This document shows positions 4,646 to 15,516 of a stretch of DNA of 15,869 nt, one piece after another. The position numbers and the translations under genes are program-made. Origin of the DNA: a bacterium. Lineage in GTDB: Bacteria > B130-G9. Positions within the stretch are counted from its first letter, which is position 1, and each line of letters opens with the position of its first letter. Under the pieces are notes generated by a model. That model did no database searches. It was not told where the DNA came from and saw only the letters and a list, made by a program, of their open reading frames with translations. The stretch spans positions 1-15,869 of the forward strand of contig JAGHCW010000221.1 of assembly GCA_021160245.1 (NCBI GenBank). Direction: 5' to 3'.

Positions 4646-6913
4646 ATGAACCGGCACATTCTAAGTCTAACAACCATCCTTTTTTGTCTCTGCCAGCTGG
4701 GTCTTGCTGGCGACGGCTTCTGGGAGACAGGGGGCCCTTACGGTGGCCGCATTGAGCGAGTTGAATACGATTGCGGCACGCCCGGGTTGTGCTACGCCGG
4801 GGGTGAGAATGGCTTCTTCAGGTCGGAGGATGGCGGCCTGAATTGGGAGAGAAGCGTCCCCGACCTCACGCCGAAAGAACTGGGCGTCGATTGCACCTCA
4901 TTCTGCGCCAGCAGAGCTGTTGAGGGGCTGGTCTATGCCGGCTTTGGCTATTTCAGCAGTTACTCGCTCTTCAAATCCGTGGACGGCGGGTTATCTTGGG
5001 AGGGCATTCGTGGGCCCTGGGGCACTAGAAGCCTGTCGGCGATTGCCAGCAGTCCTAGCAATGCAGACTACATCCTCGTCGCGACGTATGAGACCTATGA
5101 ACTGGGTCAGATATATCAGTCTTTTGACGGAGGCGCAAGTTGGGAGATGATATTCGAAGGAGCCAGACCATGTGCAATCTGCATCGATCCCAATGACGCT
5201 CAGACAATCTGGCTGGCCTGCTTATTTGATGCGCCGAAACGAAGCATGGACGGTGGAGTGACCTGGCAAGACCTGCCGCTCGGGCTAGTCCTGTCATATT
5301 TCTGGCCAACTGCGATTTATGTCTCGCCTACCGACTCCTCGGACGTCTTTATCTGCGAAATGGGGCTGTATAGTTGGAATCAGAGAGGTCTAACATGGGT
5401 TGATATGGGAATTGAGGCAGAGGATATCTGCTTCTGCGCGGATGATCCCTCCTTGATGTATGCCTGCACGTATAAAGAGGGGCTATATTCTTCCGACGAT
5501 GGCGGCGACACATGGACTGAAAGGGATGATGAGCACAACGGAATGTCCATCGATGCCTCGCCATTCGACGCAGATGATGTTCTCATCGCCTCCTATTCCG
5601 GGATTTCTCGCTCGACCGACGGCTGCGCAAGCGCTGAGTTCTCGTCGAATGGGATGATCGCTCAAGATTCCTATCAGCTTTTCGCCTGCGATTCTGAGAT
5701 GAATACGCTGGTCGTGTCGGGTATGCACTTTCTGGCAAGAAGCTCAGATGCAGGCATGAACTGGGAGATCAACGACTACTTCAGGGACATTTACTCCGTA
5801 TGCCTCGCCCAAGATCCCAATGACAGAAGTGTCCTATATGAGTGCAGTCCTTCTGAGGACATTATTCAGGTCTCTCGCAATTCAGGGCAGGATTGGGAGT
5901 TCTTCTCCTATTGGCCGGGCGGTCAATGGGATTGGTGCCAGGACCTCGCGGTTGATCCCAGCGATTCGAACAGGATATATGTCGCGATGCTTTCCGATGC
6001 GATCTTCAGAACAGAGAACCTGGGCTTAAACTGGGAGCGACTCTACAATTTTGTCGGCAGCTCGAGCGATCTTCGCACTTACGCTATAGCGATTGACCCA
6101 TGCGACGCCAATCGCATTTTCGTTTGTACATCAGAGGGGCTGTATCTTTCAACAGACTACGGCGACAGCTTTCTTCCAGTTGAGGGTTTGCCCATCGAGT
6201 CGAGGCACATCAAGTTTGATCCCATCGATTCCTCCATCATCTACGCTAGCGGCGGTTGGCGAGGGGGTGGGCTATATAGGTCAATTGACTCTGGGGAGAG
6301 CTGGGATAAGCTCGCGACGCCGGTCGAGCTAATCAATGACGTTGCGATAAACCCGAGCGATAGCGATGACTTCTACATCTCAGGGGACAAAGGGGTTCAT
6401 CACACAAGAGATAACGGCGAGACTTGGATTTCGCTCTCGACAAAGGGCCTTCAGTGCACATCGACGACCGCGATTCTCGTTGACTTTGGCGAGGCGGGCA
6501 ACACCATCCATGCGGCGGGCGCTGCGGTATTCACCTATTTTGAGCCAAACTCGCCCTCTGTTTGGCTTTCCACATCTGCCTCCGATTATCACGTCGGAGA
6601 CACATTGCGACTTGCGCTCAATCTCTCAAATACGGGCGATCAGATGCTTGTGGATTTGGCAGTTGCCGTCGGCCTTCCTGACGGGACGCTGATCTACCTG
6701 CCGAGTCTCTGGACTGGCTACAGCCCGTTCTACTCGGGCTGGTTACCGGGGCAATTTTCACTGACAGATTACACGCTGCTTGAGGCGCCGGTTGATGCTG
6801 GGTTGCCGATGGGAACGTTATGCGCTTATGCAGCGTTGCTTGAGCAAGGGACGATGAATTACATCTCGAACATCGCCACGACGACATTTACGATAGCATC
6901 CGAGAGTGAATAG
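4646..6913 (+). CDS. Secreted Asp-box (BNR/sortilin-type) beta-propeller protein with C-terminal shared domain
   Basis: A 755-residue exported protein. A signal peptide (about 1-21, cut near LGLAGDG) precedes a long propeller region with about eleven Asp-box motifs (S-x-D-x-G-x-x-W): near residues 60, 111, 159, 200, 283, 366, 410, 455, 502, 546 and 587, for example SEDGGLNW, SVDGGLSW and SIDSGESW. Between them recur IDPxDxxxIYxA-like strands (AIDPCDANRIFVCT, AVDPSDSNRIYVAM). This spacing fits the VPS10/sortilin-like multi-bladed propellers, whether one large or two. Residues about 638-750 form the domain shared with the proteins at 9037-10272 and 13336-15516. The start has an ideal ribosome site, AAGGAGG five bases upstream. 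No glycosidase catalytic set is evident, so Asp-boxes alone do not prove enzymatic activity; a binding or structural surface role is equally possible. Confidence 0.88.
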   Translation: MNRHILSLTTILFCLCQLGLAGDGFWETGGPYGGRIERVEYDCGTPGLCYAGGENGFFRSEDGGLNWERSVPDLTPKELGVDCTSFCASRAVEGLVYAGFGYFSSYSLFKSVDGGLSWEGIRGPWGTRSLSAIASSPSNADYILVATYETYELGQIYQSFDGGASWEMIFEGARPCAICIDPNDAQTIWLACLFDAPKRSMDGGVTWQDLPLGLVLSYFWPTAIYVSPTDSSDVFICEMGLYSWNQRGLTWVDMGIEAEDICFCADDPSLMYACTYKEGLYSSDDGGDTWTERDDEHNGMSIDASPFDADDVLIASYSGISRSTDGCASAEFSSNGMIAQDSYQLFACDSEMNTLVVSGMHFLARSSDAGMNWEINDYFRDIYSVCLAQDPNDRSVLYECSPSEDIIQVSRNSGQDWEFFSYWPGGQWDWCQDLAVDPSDSNRIYVAMLSDAIFRTENLGLNWERLYNFVGSSSDLRTYAIAIDPCDANRIFVCTSEGLYLSTDYGDSFLPVEGLPIESRHIKFDPIDSSIIYASGGWRGGGLYRSIDSGESWDKLATPVELINDVAINPSDSDDFYISGDKGVHHTRDNGETWISLSTKGLQCTSTTAILVDFGEAGNTIHAAGAAVFTYFEPNSPSVWLSTSASDYHVGDTLRLALNLSNTGDQMLVDLAVAVGLPDGTLIYLPSLWTGYSPFYSGWLPGQFSLTDYTLLEAPVDAGLPMGTLCAYAALLEQGTMNYISNIATTTFTIASESE

Positions 6914-6950: not shown

Positions 6951-7249
6951 TTGGGCCAAATAGAGCCTGATCGTGGAGAAGGCAGGAGGACATTTCGTGG
7001 TATCGTACCCTGCGTTTCACACGGGGGCACTCATGTAGATCCCCCTTCAGGGAGGCGATTGAACTAAGGCAAGACCCTCGGAATATGCATCTCGGCACGA
7101 GACTACAACAAGCCAGGTCAGCCTCTCTCACGTTGCCCTGCTTGACAGTGCAATGGTTTGTTCGATAGACTCCTGCCTGATAACTGAAATTGGAAGCTGG
7201 TCGCCCCAGCTCCTAAGATGAGATAAGCAAACTTGCGGAACGGAGTGTC
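6951..7249. other. Non-coding interval before the microcompartment genes
   Basis: No gene is supported here. The interval contains the promoter-like pair at 7142-7171. The ribosome site for the shell gene is GGAG at 7242-7245, only four bases from the ATG. Nothing else stood out. Confidence 0.6.
7142..7171 (+). promoter_or_regulatory. Candidate sigma-70-type promoter of the microcompartment pair
   Basis: A perfect TTGACA (7142-7147) is followed after 18 bases by TAGACT (7166-7171, four of six matches to TATAAT). Transcription would start about 70 bases before the shell gene. It is on the correct strand and is the best promoter-like pair upstream of these genes. Confidence 0.4.
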
Positions 7250-7537
7250 ATGCCTGGGCGTGAGGCGCTTGGACTTTTAGAGACGATAGGTTTAATCGGC
7301 GCGATTGAGGCGGCGGACGCTATGGTCAAAGCTGCCGATGTTACGCTGGTTGGGACAGAATACACAGGGGGGGCTCTTATCGCAGTCATGGTCAGGGGTG
7401 ATGTTGGGGCGGTCAAGGCGGCAACGGACGCCGGAGCGGTGGCGGCCGGGGCGGTAGGGGAATTGGTTTCCGTGCATGTTATCCCTTACCCTCACGGCGA
7501 GGTCAACAAGGCCCTGCCAAAGCCCCCGGGCGAGTGA
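7250..7537 (+). CDS. Bacterial microcompartment hexameric shell protein (BMC-H, PduA/EutM/CcmK type)
   Basis: A 95-residue single-domain BMC protein, the usual size for BMC-H. Hexamers of such proteins tile the flat facets of protein-shelled organelles and their central pores pass substrates. The match to PduA is clear through [20 protein letters not shown], then [32 protein letters not shown] (51-62) and the [11 protein letters not shown] tail (75-85). By alignment to PduA from memory, the pore segment GSG (Ser40 of PduA) is replaced here by Gly40-Gly41-Ala42, giving a smaller, apolar pore rim. The ribosome site GGAG is four bases from the ATG. The 198-residue partner gene starts 15 bases after the stop, so the two are very likely cotranscribed. 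No other shell gene (BMC-T, pentamer) or cargo enzyme gene is in the window. The compartment type therefore cannot be named. Confidence 0.95.
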
Positions 7538-7552
7538 TAGGGCGCCAGCTCT

Positions 7553-8149
7553 ATGACTAGAGTAATCGGTGCTAGAGAGGTCGAACGGCTCGAAATAGGC
7601 GCCTCGTTGACGATTCCTCTGGATGCGATTATCACGCCGCTTGCGAAGGACATCATTGGAGAGAAGCGTCTGAAACTCATTATGGCAGAAGCGGAGGCAG
7701 AAGTCGCGGCGGCCGAGCGGGAGACGGAGGAGAATGCGGCCGAGGCAGCGCTTGAGGAGTCCCTGCATTCATCACAAGTGCATTTGGAGACCACGAGGAT
7801 GACGGAACAATCCAATATAGCTGAGCCTCAGACCGCCTCGGTGGTTGAGGCGACGGTCAAGCATCTGCTCGCAAGAGACCTGCTCAAAAAGGTTGATTGT
7901 CCTGATGCCGAGAAGTTCGCCGTGTTTGGGGCGGATGCCGCTGCCCTTCTGAGAGCGGTGGTTATGGAATCCGAGATGTGCGAGGCGCGGATCGAGCGGC
8001 TCTCGGGACGAGTTGTGGCGGGATTATTCGTTTTGGCGGTTGCGGTGTCGTTTTCTGAGAGTGGTGAGCAACGGCCCCGAAAGGCCCTGGAGGAGGGCCT
8101 TTCAAGGCGCGGTGTTGCCCTAGTATTGGGAACCCAGGATGGGGATTAA
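7553..8149 (+). CDS. Microcompartment-associated protein with N-terminal ITPLAKD segment
   Basis: A 198-residue protein encoded 15 bases after the BMC-H gene. Residues 1-42 (REVERL, then TIPLDAIITPLAKDIIGEKR) resemble a segment I associate from memory with several microcompartment-locus proteins, including cobalamin adenosyltransferase and EutQ-like proteins; here it is not followed by a catalytic domain that I recognise. Residues about 44-72 are an Ala/Glu-rich, probably helical or coiled linker. The C-terminal part (about 92-190) is a mostly helical, unrecognised domain with an apolar stretch RVVAGLFVLAVAV (153-165). The ATG is the only possible start: an in-frame TAG lies at 7538, but no good ribosome site is visible, so translation may depend on coupling to the shell gene. 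It could be a scaffold, a cargo-targeting protein or an assembly factor. The link to the shell is strong from context; the function is unknown. Confidence 0.72.
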   Translation: MTRVIGAREVERLEIGASLTIPLDAIITPLAKDIIGEKRLKLIMAEAEAEVAAAERETEENAAEAALEESLHSSQVHLETTRMTEQSNIAEPQTASVVEATVKHLLARDLLKKVDCPDAEKFAVFGADAAALLRAVVMESEMCEARIERLSGRVVAGLFVLAVAVSFSESGEQRPRKALEEGLSRRGVALVLGTQDGD

Positions 8150-9036: not shown

Positions 9037-10272
9037 CTACTGCAGGTCCACGTTTCCCTGGACACTTGCGGAAGCGTAGGCGGTCGATAGCTCGGTCAGG
9101 CCGCTGGCGCTGAATGCGGTCTCCGCCTGGCGCGATATCGAGAAGGACGGCAGGTACCATTCCACACTCGGCGAGGGCGGCAGTTGACTTAGCAGACTCG
9201 CTGGAACTGTCCCCTGGCCATTGTCCACAAAGCGGCATGAGCACTGCGTGACAGAGGTTGGCTCTTGGGTCATCTGGTCTATGTCATACGAGGTGATCGA
9301 CACGAAGACATCGCCAACACCAGTACCCTCCCAGCTGACGTTCAGGTCTTGAGAGCGATTAATTTCAGGGACAGGATATAGAGTCGGCGCATAGAGAACG
9401 ACCGGCGCAGGCGCAACAACTGATACCGTGAATGCTCCAACATCCGGACCGCCATATCCCTCAAAGGTGTAGTTGGAGCCTCCGGAGTAATGGCCCTCTA
9501 CCATCTCGTCTGCAGGATAATACTGGATCATGTCCATGTAGGAGAATTTGGGCAGCGCAACTGTCCCGAGTGGACTGCCAAACATATCGAGCTTGGCTCC
9601 AGCGTCGAGATACTTGCTGTAGGTGGTTTCTCCGCCGTTCTCCCAGTCCCAAGTGGTTACCTCACAACCATACTCCATCTCATCCTTGTCAAGCGCCTCG
9701 CGCCGTCGCTCCTCCTCATACACCTCGAAGAAGAGGCCACCAGCCATAACCCAGACCTCACCATCCGGGGCAAGCTCGTCAAACGACTTCGACCAATCCA
9801 AATATAGATGACCGTATGACCCGGCCGACGTCCCCTGGTTCATTATGGTAAATGGCGTCCAGGCGAGCTCCCCCACAAACTCCAAAGTCCCAGGTCTTGT
9901 GTAGGCCGCAGCCGCGACATAATCCCCAGCCTGATTCAGCGGAAAGCTGCCTATCGAAAACGAGCCAAGCGATGCAGGGCCGAACATAAAGAACGAAGGA
10001 AGCGTCAGGTTCGGGAACCACGGATTGAGACTCGTATTCATATCCGGCAGCTCGTAAATAGCGCCACCGGGGGCGATGATCGCCAGATGAACGTCGAGCG
10101 TTATCTCCGGCCCCAAGTTCATGGCCATAGCCGAAAGATTTAGCGTGGCATCATCCCCGATTATGTACGAGGTCTTGTCCGTGAACGTCATGATGGTGGG
10201 ATCTTGGGCAATAGCCATCCCACTCCCAAGCGCAAACACACAAATCGACAACACCAAAACACATCTGCGCAT
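9037..10272 (-). CDS. Secreted two-domain protein, unknown function
   Basis: A 411-residue exported protein. The start is ATG 10272, with AAGGAG six bases upstream; a longer in-frame ATG at 10290 would itself contain that ribosome site. Residues 1-22 are a signal peptide (MRRCVLVLSICVFALGSG, cut near AIAQ). Residues about 28-143 are the domain shared with the proteins at 4646-6913 and 13336-15516 (YIIGDDATLNL, DVHLAIIAPGG, FPNLTLPSFFMFGP, ending TPFTI), here N-terminal. A middle region (about 150-260) is acidic and rich in Tyr, Trp and Glu. The C-terminal region (about 265-395: GGPDVGAFTVSV, INRSQDLNVSWEG, VTQCSCRFVD, VPASLLSQLP, TAFSASGL) resembles, from memory, a beta-sandwich pattern in uncharacterised secreted proteins of Acidobacteria-like genomes. 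It stands alone on the minus strand with its own terminator. Function unknown; export and domain sharing are well supported. Confidence 0.83.
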   Translation of the reverse strand: MRRCVLVLSICVFALGSGMAIAQDPTIMTFTDKTSYIIGDDATLNLSAMAMNLGPEITLDVHLAIIAPGGAIYELPDMNTSLNPWFPNLTLPSFFMFGPASLGSFSIGSFPLNQAGDYVAAAAYTRPGTLEFVGELAWTPFTIMNQGTSAGSYGHLYLDWSKSFDELAPDGEVWVMAGGLFFEVYEEERRREALDKDEMEYGCEVTTWDWENGGETTYSKYLDAGAKLDMFGSPLGTVALPKFSYMDMIQYYPADEMVEGHYSGGSNYTFEGYGGPDVGAFTVSVVAPAPVVLYAPTLYPVPEINRSQDLNVSWEGTGVGDVFVSITSYDIDQMTQEPTSVTQCSCRFVDNGQGTVPASLLSQLPPSPSVEWYLPSFSISRQAETAFSASGLTELSTAYASASVQGNVDLQ

Positions 10273-10315
10273 ACCAATCTCCTTTTTCATATCAGTGCGC
10301 AATAACTAACAATCA

Positions 10316-10376: not shown

Positions 10377-10468
10377 GATTTCGGATTGGGGATTGGGGAT
10401 TGTGCCAATTTCGGATTTCGGATTGGGGATTTCGGATTTCGGATTTCGGATTGGGGATTGCGGATTGA
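10377..10468 (+). repeat. Interrupted heptamer repeat, GGATT plus two variable bases
   Basis: One partial and eleven full copies of GGATTNN run almost without a break; the last two bases are TC, GG, GC or GA. One break (TGCCAATTTC, around 10403-10412) lies inside. The array ends four bases before the four-helix-bundle start codon. In frame it reads as a spurious N-terminal extension (GFRIGDFGFRISDWGLRIED), which explains why the open frame starts too early at 10386. Confidence 0.88.
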
Positions 10469-10472
10469 AGAT

Positions 10473-10853
10473 ATGATGGCCAGTGTGCATTATTGGGATA
10501 TGGATGCTGAGGAATTCAGGGGGAGAACGAAAACTTTTGCACTGCGCGTGATTCGGCTGGTTGAGGCGTTGCCGAAGTCTCGGACGGCGGATGTGCTTGG
10601 AAGACAGCTGATGCGATGTGGGACGTCGGTCGGGGCGAACTACCGCGCGGCCTGCCGAGCAAGGTCTCCGAAGGATTTCATCGCGAAGATGGCGATTGTT
10701 GAGGAGGAGTGCGACGAGGCCATCTACTGGATGGAGCTTCTCGTCGAGGCGGATCTTATGGATGAGAGCCGGGTTGCCGACCTCAAGAGAGAAGCAGTTG
10801 AAATCTTGTCGATGGTCGTGAGTTCCATCAAAACGGCGAGGTCACGCAAATAA
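10473..10853 (+). CDS. Four-helix-bundle protein (23S rRNA intervening-sequence / S23 family)
   Basis: A 126-residue protein of the four-helix-bundle family first seen in 23S rRNA intervening sequences and related to the Avd proteins of diversity-generating retroelements. Family landmarks: EEFRGRTKTFALRVIRLVEA (helix 1), QLMRCGTSVGANYRAACRAR (the nearly invariant GTSVGANYREA region), KDFIAKMAIVEEECDEAIYW (helix 3) and a C-terminal helix ending KTARSRK. Start candidates are ATGs at 10473, 10476 and 10500; the first was chosen because it directly follows the repeat array. The ribosome site is poor (GAAG). The family is thought to bind nucleic acid; the biological role is unsettled. Gene and stop codon are bracketed by an inverted 14-bp copy of the upstream repeat, giving a cassette-like unit. 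No reverse transcriptase or variable-region pair lies nearby. Confidence 0.93.
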   Translation: MMASVHYWDMDAEEFRGRTKTFALRVIRLVEALPKSRTADVLGRQLMRCGTSVGANYRAACRARSPKDFIAKMAIVEEECDEAIYWMELLVEADLMDESRVADLKREAVEILSMVVSSIKTARSRK

Positions 10854-13335: not shown

Positions 13336-15516
13336 CTATTCGGAGATCGTGAAGCTGGCGAGGCTCGGGAGACTGATGTAGTCCATAGTATCCGCCTCAC
13401 AGAGCGCGCTTGCGGCATAGTATGTGCCGGCCGCTATGGAGCTCGGCAGCTTGAGCTGAAGCACCACTTGAGGACCAAATACGAAGTCCGATGGTATCGT
13501 GATGTTCGGAACCCAGGGGAATACTCCGATTCCTAGGCCGCCCGATTGGCCGAGGCAGAATATCGCTCCATCGGGAAGGATAAGGGCGACATAGACATCT
13601 GCGACAAATGGCATGCCCGGGTTCTCCACGGTAATCGATACAGACAGCGATTCTCCGGGCTTCAGCAAGGCCGAGTTCACACCGGTCAGAATGCTTGGAA
13701 GCGATGATGGATAATGGAATCCGATGTCAACCGCGCCACCATCGAAGAGGTCGTCCGTTCGGGTGGTTTTCGTCGAAAGCCCAATATCCGAGGCTAGGTC
13801 GCTTCCAGCATCGACACAGGGGCTATTCGCGGCCTGTCCGGCCTCAAGCGAGCTTAAGTAATAGAGCCCAAGCGGGCCTTCGGTAAAGATTGGGGTAGAT
13901 TCCACGCAATGAGCGCCCGCGAAGACCGGAGCGATACAGCAATATGAGGTTCTAAATCCGCTCTCACCAGTGAATATCGAGCTCTCTGTCCCTCCCTGGA
14001 TGATGCTGTTTAGAGCCTCCGGCCAGCAGTGCGATTCGCAGTAGAGCGTGCTCCCTGTGGGCGCCGTGTTGTTCCAAATAGTCGTGTTCTCAAAGACCGG
14101 GTCGCAATAGACGGTGCTGAAGATAGCTCCTCCGAAACCTGCGGACGAATTATCTGCGATAAGGCAATTGAAGAACTCCGGATAGCAGTATTCCTGAATG
14201 TAAATCGCGCCTCCTTCAGCGCTCTGCCCATTCGCTTCGTTTGAGATGATCTTACAGTGAGAGAACATTGGGGATGAATCGCTTATGCAGAACAATGCGC
14301 CACCGCTGCCGCTGGCTTGATTCTGCCTTATGACGCACGATTCGAGTTCCGTCCCTGCGCTTTCGCATACAGCCAGCGCGGCTCCGGATACGGCGGTGTT
14401 CGCGGCAATTGTGCAATCCTCGATAATCGCCGAGCCGTTCTCACCGATATAAAGTCCACCGCCCTCAAGGAGCGCTTCGTTTGCGGCGAGGTCGGAGTTC
14501 GAGAGGTCGAGTTCCGAGTTAAGGCAGCAGATGCCGCCCCCGTTTTGTTGAGCAGTGTTTGCGGACATCTGCGAGTTGACAACTACGCAGCTTGATCTGC
14601 CGTCACACAGGATGGCCCCGCCGGCGCCTTCAGACTCATTGCTGAAGAGCGTGCAGGAATCGATGGTCGCATCTGAATGATCGGTGCAAACGACGCCCGC
14701 GCCGACTGCCCCCGTATTGGACGCCACATTGGAACCTTTGATGCTGGCAGACGCATATTCGCTGATCGTTATTCCGCCGCCTGTGTTCGATGCTATGCTG
14801 CAATTCTCGAGCATGATGGAAGACCATCTATGGGCTGCTATTCCTCCTCCAGCGTTCTCGGATACTTGGCAATTTTTGATCGTTGGGGCCGCGTAGAATC
14901 GACTTAAGATACCGCCCCCAGAAGCGTCGGCGGTGTTGACCGATATGACGCAGTCGTCGAGCACGGGGAAAGAACGTCCGTATATATAGACTCCGGCCCC
15001 GCCATCGTCCGCGCCGAGTCCTGTCACGCTATTTTCACTGATGTCGCATTCTGACGCGGTGAATGTGGAGTCTATGCTGCATATTCCGCCTCCACAGCCG
15101 TCCGGCCAACTCCCCGACGCTGCCCCTCCTGTTATCGCCATTCTCTGCAAAGTCGAGGCTGTGGCATCCTGAAAGAAGATCACGTGCTTGGCGGATGATT
15201 CTGCGTCAAGAACGGTCGAATTGGGCCCGGTTCCCACAAGACATAGATAGCTCGGCATAACGAGTGGAAAACTCTCGCCATTCCCACTCGGCGAGTAGGC
15301 GCCGGCGCCAATGTGAAGAGTGGCCGGCGACGTCTGCGACGTGCTAATCTGCGTCAACGCGTGCGTCAGCGTCTTCCATTGACCATCGATTGTGCCTTCG
15401 TTCTCGTCGTTGCCAATGATGCCGTTTACGTAATAATCAGTGGTTTCGGCGTGTGCTAGGCCAAATGCCAAGACGAATATCCCAGCGGTGCAAAGCAACC
15501 AGAAATGATTCCTCAT
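13336..15516 (-). CDS. Secreted right-handed beta-helix protein with C-terminal shared domain
   Basis: A 726-residue exported protein. A signal peptide (1-23, MRNHFWLLCTAGIFVLAFGL, cut after AHA) precedes a DUF1565-type opening (YYVNGIIGNDENEGTIDGQW, then KTLTHAL). Most of the rest is a parallel beta-helix with about 20 coils in which short GG[AG][ILV] turns recur: GGGICSID, GAGVYIYG, GGGILSRF, GGAILCDG, GGGICCLN, GGGLYIGE, GGALFCIS, GGAIYIQE, GGAIFSTV. With N-C-x-I and SNxT/ANTA steps the pattern recalls polymorphic membrane proteins (GGAI and FxxN motifs) and pectate-lyase-like helices. Many coils carry Cys, which may form a ladder or disulfides. Residues about 608-726 are the shared domain (DVYVALILPDG, DTMDYIS, SFTISE). 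The start has AAGGAG seven bases upstream. No catalytic residues were identified; adhesion or a surface structural role is the simplest guess. Confidence 0.88.
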   Translation of the reverse strand: MRNHFWLLCTAGIFVLAFGLAHAETTDYYVNGIIGNDENEGTIDGQWKTLTHALTQISTSQTSPATLHIGAGAYSPSGNGESFPLVMPSYLCLVGTGPNSTVLDAESSAKHVIFFQDATASTLQRMAITGGAASGSWPDGCGGGICSIDSTFTASECDISENSVTGLGADDGGAGVYIYGRSFPVLDDCVISVNTADASGGGILSRFYAAPTIKNCQVSENAGGGIAAHRWSSIMLENCSIASNTGGGITISEYASASIKGSNVASNTGAVGAGVVCTDHSDATIDSCTLFSNESEGAGGAILCDGRSSCVVVNSQMSANTAQQNGGGICCLNSELDLSNSDLAANEALLEGGGLYIGENGSAIIEDCTIAANTAVSGAALAVCESAGTELESCVIRQNQASGSGGALFCISDSSPMFSHCKIISNEANGQSAEGGAIYIQEYCYPEFFNCLIADNSSAGFGGAIFSTVYCDPVFENTTIWNNTAPTGSTLYCESHCWPEALNSIIQGGTESSIFTGESGFRTSYCCIAPVFAGAHCVESTPIFTEGPLGLYYLSSLEAGQAANSPCVDAGSDLASDIGLSTKTTRTDDLFDGGAVDIGFHYPSSLPSILTGVNSALLKPGESLSVSITVENPGMPFVADVYVALILPDGAIFCLGQSGGLGIGVFPWVPNITIPSDFVFGPQVVLQLKLPSSIAAGTYYAASALCEADTMDYISLPSLASFTISE

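Follow-up and report, generated by a model that had tools for sequence, protein, structure and literature searches.

A conserved pair of a BMC-H shell gene and a putative ACT-fused linker gene among dispersed microcompartment genes

A BMC-H shell gene and the gene of a 198-residue partner protein were found to form one conserved unit in three genera, in which the neighbouring genes change. By sequence comparison, the N-terminal module of the partner was shown to be homologous to parts of EutQ, EutT, PduM and the family TIGR02536, and its C-terminal domain was predicted to be ACT-like. With a probability that we put at roughly one half, the partner is a shell-core linker of the EutQ/PduM kind in which an ACT-like domain replaces the cupin, co-encoded with a BMC-H of different pore. 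As far as our searches reach, the ACT-fused linker is new; the dispersed compartment itself is known (FRAG).

The gene pair and its conservation

The window, that is the whole stretch of DNA analysed (15,869 bases), is the complete contig C21 of genome G000, a 3.43 Mb draft of 94.8% completeness, both ends of which are over 7 kb away from the pair. Both open reading frames and the gap of exactly 15 bases between the BMC-H stop and the partner start were confirmed as given by the first-pass annotation, and the start that it had chosen for the locus coincided with a promoter-like site (Table 1), of which the scan gave 3 in the region against 1.0 expected. The shell protein carried a single full-length BMC domain, scoring 86.4 bits against the curated PF00936 cut-off of 24.5 with positions 1-75 of the 75 in the profile covered, and thus belongs to BMC-H. 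As the same annotation had stated, no BMC-T, BMC-P (pentamer) or aldehyde dehydrogenase gene was seen within the window, and the pair is flanked by genes of surface type, for a Vps10/BNR protein (4646-6913) and a beta-helix protein (13336-15516).

Table 1. Positions of the gene pair in the window, domains of the partner, and contigs of the G000 shell genes
Feature	Position	Strand	Basis
Promoter-like site TTGACA-18-TAGACT, upstream of the pair	7142..7171	+	Consensus scan only, 10/12
BMC-H shell protein (95 aa)	7250..7537	+	PF00936 over full length, E 1.3e-24
Partner protein (198 aa, ATG start): N-terminal BMC module, linker, ACT-like domain	7553..8149	+	ORF; adjacent orthologues in G001 and G002; codon-position selection
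ITPLAKD module (residues 1-46)	7553..7690	+	Profile and NCBIfam matches; model pLDDT 85
Ala/Glu-rich linker (residues 47-116), poorly conserved	7691..7900	+	Alignment, model, codon positions
ACT-like domain (residues 117-195)	7901..8137	+	AF2 model, Foldseek, VIA-align, PF13740 sub-threshold
BMC-H genes (G000)	C21 and C31		
Tandem BMC-T gene (G000)	C14		
BMC-P genes (G000)	C94, C11, C14		

The pair was sought within the phylum in three other genomes, G001, G002 and G003. In the first two, which represent two other genera, the BMC-H and partner genes were again adjacent, separated by 12-16 bases and sharing 77-78% (BMC-H) and 41-50% (partner) identity with G000. The neighbours differed: G001 has an ABC-transporter gene there, and G002 a PAS-type gene and a gene for an SbcD-like exonuclease (names by sequence reading). 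The pair was not found in G003, where the draft state (83% complete, 420 contigs) makes its absence uninformative. Between the three partner orthologues obtained in all, third codon positions of the module changed 3-6 times as often as second positions (0.52-0.55 vs 0.09-0.18) and those of the ACT region about twice as often, and in the linker first positions changed almost as freely as third. These patterns show that both ends of the partner are under protein-level selection, with the linker nearly free.

It is very improbable that the two genes are a remnant, or part of an ordinary locus that was split up in assembly, which the first-pass annotation had named as a refuting finding. The genome is indeed a draft of 244 contigs, but the pair is intact in the middle of its contig and is found again in two further genera beside different genes, selection is visible in the codon positions of the partner, and several genomes keep other BMC genes within conserved housekeeping surroundings. 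A broken locus was thus rejected.

No relative of the partner was detected in the viral contigs searched. When genome contigs of 84,980 species were scanned with two N-terminal peptide patterns only, a full-length relative was found only in JAFGIT01, which is G002, and the remaining matches, in two Tissierellaceae, were to the module only. As far as these sequence searches reach, the combination of module and ACT-like domain appears confined to the source phylum.

The module and the ACT-like domain of the partner

Residues 4-43 of the partner matched the C-terminus of TIGR02536 (NCBIfam) with E 0.0019, or 1.5e-4 when the module was scanned alone. A profile built from 26 module sequences recovered EutQ 2-46 (30.1 bits) and EutT 5-48 (23.9 bits) from E. 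coli K-12 and picked only these two among the 14 eut-region proteins of that strain, while 100 column-shuffled profiles reached at most 5.5 bits. For EutQ 2-46, an HMM score of 26.8 bits and an hhalign probability of 95% were also obtained. Against 18,950 NCBIfam models, TIGR02536 was matched by all 26 modules, two PduM models by 14 and 12, EutQ by 10 and EutT by 7, and further models by scattered single matches only; in PduM the module lies at the C-terminal residues ~114-153 (NCBIfam). The ITPLAKD segment, noticed at first as common to microcompartment-locus proteins, is therefore real and not a chance resemblance, as judged by TIGR02536 and the shuffle-controlled profile. According to a paper of 2025 (PMC12108088), sequence homologues of PduM are not known beyond the Pdu compartments. 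Among openly available papers naming PduM, EutQ and EutT together, judged by title and abstract, none described a shared module.

In Salmonella EutQ, the H1/H2 region (9-41) was shown experimentally to be needed for contact with the shell and H3/H4 (62-99) for contact with the cargo EP, and the C-terminus dimerises (PMC12487888). The EutQ stretch matched by the module includes H1/H2, so an H1/H2-type module as in shell-core linkers is present in the partner according to the EutQ/EutT profile and the NCBIfam PduM matches. The module was modelled as two helices with short strands, vs the two helices predicted for EutQ H1/H2 in PMC12487888. By its homology with EutQ, the module would confer shell binding on the partner.

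The predicted module had no Foldseek match at E <= 0.001, and the partner profile had no match among PDB sequences, where the module profiles gave only chance matches and a weak match to an E2 peripheral-subunit-binding domain. The corresponding Pfam family, E3_binding, weakly matched 9 of the 26 module sequences (best E 0.0058), possibly because the TPLARD helix is locally similar; identity with this domain was rejected, as the predicted module contains strands and gave no Foldseek match at that threshold.

Of 386 genomes from across the domain that were searched with a profile, 29 had a module match. Outside the phylum, a BMC-H or BMC-P gene was present within the ~3 kb locus at 10 of the 13 strongest module loci (L057-L069). 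The module occurs there standalone or fused to RpiB, triose-phosphate isomerase or flavoprotein-like domains. In G000, G001 and G002 the partner was the sole module-bearing protein, even at E <= 1. Separately, a triose-phosphate isomerase with the module at its N-terminus was observed in an unrelated genome (L072 1495-2403), in a short locus without a shell gene.

That the companion might be a known enzyme, for example an adenosyltransferase, had been raised at the outset. EutT was rejected, since PRK15020 gave 12 bits vs 226 and only over the module, and for enzymes of other kinds no full-length family match to the partner was obtained. The partner scored far below the cut-offs of the TIGR02536, EutT, RpiB and triose-phosphate isomerase families, with the module alone in common. 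These proteins and the triose-phosphate isomerase fusions share the 46-residue module with the partner and differ from it in carrying flavoprotein-like, adenosyltransferase or isomerase domains instead. The partner also falls outside the EutQ family proper (PRK15457), as full-length scans gave no EutQ or cupin family.

The linker was partly helical in the AlphaFold2 model, with low confidence at residues 74-98. An EP-binding or EP-like helix was not detected in it, the hydrophobic moment being not above that of shuffles in two of the three orthologues. The C-terminal domain, initially described as unrecognised, proved recognisable. AlphaFold2 predicted a beta-alpha-beta-beta-alpha-beta domain at residues 120-192, whose core pLDDT of ~69-83 per block indicates moderate confidence. 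On this model, the predicted fold matched solved ACT domains, which were the best Foldseek matches (SerB, E 9e-5; 1zpv, TM 0.71 over 76 columns, rmsd 2.3), and VIA-align gave the ACT domains of PGDH, AcuB and IlvH type with Z 8.7-9.6 (PGDH 9.6). VIA-align also returned ribosomal S6 at Z ~8, the fold being common, and PF13740 (ACT_6) scored 20.3 bits with the G001 orthologue, below its 23-bit cut-off, and did not match the window copy. For these two reasons the domain is called only ACT-like, which is a fair term. The usual glycine loop of ACT domains (DRPG) is replaced by GADA, GPDC and GIDS in the orthologues (sequence reading), so that ligand binding is putative. Compared with ACT_6 members (SerB, GcvR-like, 1zpv), the domain is alike in predicted fold and, in one orthologue, in sequence pattern, and differs in its score below the curated cut-off and its altered ligand loop. 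A literature search joining "microcompartment" and "ACT domain" found nothing relevant.

Dispersed shell genes and candidate cargo

The shell set of G000 consists of two BMC-H, one tandem BMC-T and three BMC-P genes, placed singly at six places, with the two loci on C14 4.3 kb apart, and no main BMC locus was found anywhere in the genome. The pair had been interpreted as a satellite of a compartment encoded elsewhere. This held insofar as a lone shell gene with one companion does stand far from the other BMC genes; the search of the rest of the genome found no main locus to which it could be a satellite, every shell gene standing alone here and in the relatives.

The relatives repeated the scattered single shell genes with conserved local surroundings. 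A helicase gene precedes BMC-T in G000, G001 and G003. In three genomes one BMC-P gene comes after queuosine genes (QueC- and QueE-like), and in G000-G003 another BMC-P gene has an energy-transducer-like gene and a gene for a permease as neighbours (for both, L011 3013-5450; L031, L032). In four genomes the other BMC-H (C31; L018, L019, L020) directly follows a class II aldolase gene, which in G002 is truncated at a contig end, and lies upstream of leuS; the gene intervening before leuS is of DUF262 type in G000 and of transposase type in G002. Apart from this BMC-H, which adjoins the aldolase, five of the six G000 shell loci are without an adjoining BMC-type enzyme gene.

Microcompartments of the FRAG type, widespread in candidate phyla, have their shell genes spread over up to six loci and possess a BMC-P triplet, according to Sutter et al. 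(2021, PMC8217296). Several separate shell loci with no main locus were likewise found in G000 and its relatives, and the compartment of G000 is a good fit to this published kind. The FRAG triplet consists of a BMC-P of the grey clade, one of the orange clade and a third of some other clade, and the three BMC-P genes here were compared with it by number. Shell genes lying mostly apart from enzyme genes are a further FRAG trait, with which the five G000 loci noted above can be compared. The compartment differs in that one BMC-H gene adjoins that of an EP-tailed class II aldolase and the other that of the putative ACT-fused linker, neither of which is named for FRAG in the passages of PMC8217296 consulted.

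By sequence, the window BMC-H is the second BMC-H paralogue of the genome. Its pore loop reads EYTGGA vs EKIGGG in the other BMC-H and KQIGGG in E. coli EutM; in the three genomes with the pair the loop is EYTGGA, EYTGGG or EYAGSA, always unlike that of the other BMC-H. The modified facets proposed at first sight thus remain part of the picture. It is conceivable, though quite unlikely, that this tile is the whole point of the unit, expressed separately to tune permeability, as proposed for CcmK3/K4, with the partner as a minor accessory. Such a role would agree with the constant difference in pore loop and with proposals that satellite shell genes change permeability (PMC8217296). Against it, the partner stays adjacent despite only ~41-50% identity, with both of its end domains under selection.

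Two candidate cargo enzymes were recognised in G000. The C31 aldolase ends in an EP-like amphipathic helix, whose hydrophobic moment was above that of shuffles in G000 (p 0.03) and not in the G003 copy. An acylating aldehyde dehydrogenase of the EutE/PduP subfamily is encoded on C71, apart from the shell genes; an EP-like N-terminus was visible in G001, the N-terminus of the G000 copy being cut by a contig end. A PduL-type PTAC (PF06130) was not found in G000; PTA_PTB was present in all four genomes, its tie to the compartment being hypothetical. As a side observation, a D-2-hydroxyacid dehydrogenase-like gene lies ~2.5 kb from the pair in G001 (L054 4821-5828); none was seen beside the pair in the window, and a hydroxyacid dehydrogenase also occurs in ACI-type loci having the same aldolase type.

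Possible role of the pair and its neighbours

Under the preferred reading, the two genes would form a single unit within a dispersed metabolosome of the FRAG type. Facet tiles would be supplied by the BMC-H, with a pore unlike that of the other BMC-H; the module of the partner would, like the H1/H2 region of EutQ to which it is homologous, dock on the inner shell, and the flexible linker would extend into the lumen. The ACT-like domain, in the position of the dimeric cupin of EutQ, would pair linker copies and may bind a small ligand, and the partner would gather or tune the EP-tailed aldolase and the aldehyde dehydrogenase. Shell binding in the source species, dimerisation, ligand sensing and cargo contact are what we infer from these comparisons. 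The partner was taken as the linker because a core with EP-bearing enzymes needs joining to the shell and it is the sole recognisable candidate; the recruitment role suggested for the companion by the first-pass annotation is accordingly, as recruitment or assembly, still its best reading.

Like EutQ, the partner begins with the module, continues in a flexible stretch and ends in a globular domain (the part that dimerises in EutQ), and would be the sole or a rare linker of its compartment. It differs in that its C-terminus is ACT-like and not a cupin, that H3/H4-type EP-binding helices are not demonstrable, and that its gene adjoins a BMC-H gene instead of lying within an eut operon. With PduM, a structural protein of low abundance connecting the shell to the core (PMC9132943), it shares the module, which PduM carries at the opposite, C-terminal end behind an N-terminal signal sequence; no ACT domain has been reported for PduM.

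The occurrence of the module on enzymes (RpiB, triose-phosphate isomerase, EutT), which need only a location in the lumen and where it is possibly a mere cargo tag, speaks against the linker reading. So do the lack of a demonstrable EP-binding helix in the linker, the sub-threshold ACT match, the altered glycine loop and the small set of three orthologues. ACT domains usually regulate metabolic enzymes, and the fold matched those of SerB, PGDH and GcvR-like proteins. The module could then be an encapsulation tag only, and the partner a lumen regulator of the aldolase or dehydrogenase with no structural role. We regard this as the less probable course, although a serious one, for in these genomes no other protein carries the module, and the partner has no enzyme fused to it and forms its gene pair with a shell protein, not with the aldolase. 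If the partner is the linker, the joining of an ACT domain to a shell-docking module might make it metabolite-gated, so that assembly or loading would depend on a small ligand at the sole assembly hub of an operon-less compartment; this extension is speculative and on balance unlikely.

Beyond the pdu and eut systems, it is an open question by what means a shell acquires its cargo. The module is common to PduM, EutQ, EutT, TIGR02536 and enzyme fusions across phyla, and one docking part may therefore serve many microcompartments. In the partner it occurs together with an ACT-like domain, and the compartment concerned lacks an operon that would hold its parts together. FRAG compartments, whose function is unknown, gain from this a testable assembly factor besides the two candidate cargo enzymes.

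Among the neighbours in the window, three large proteins of secreted type (4646-6913, 9037-10302 and 13336-15516) differ in their main folds and apparently share one domain of ~110 residues, N-terminal in the second and C-terminal in the other two. It also ends a protein adjoining a BMC-P gene in G002 (L030 1-732) and is perhaps a lineage-specific surface or sorting domain. The open reading frame 10386-10853 encodes a four-helix bundle (S23-like), and its longest reading crosses a degenerate repeat (FGFRIGDFGFRISDWGLRIEDM), the true start being probably further in.
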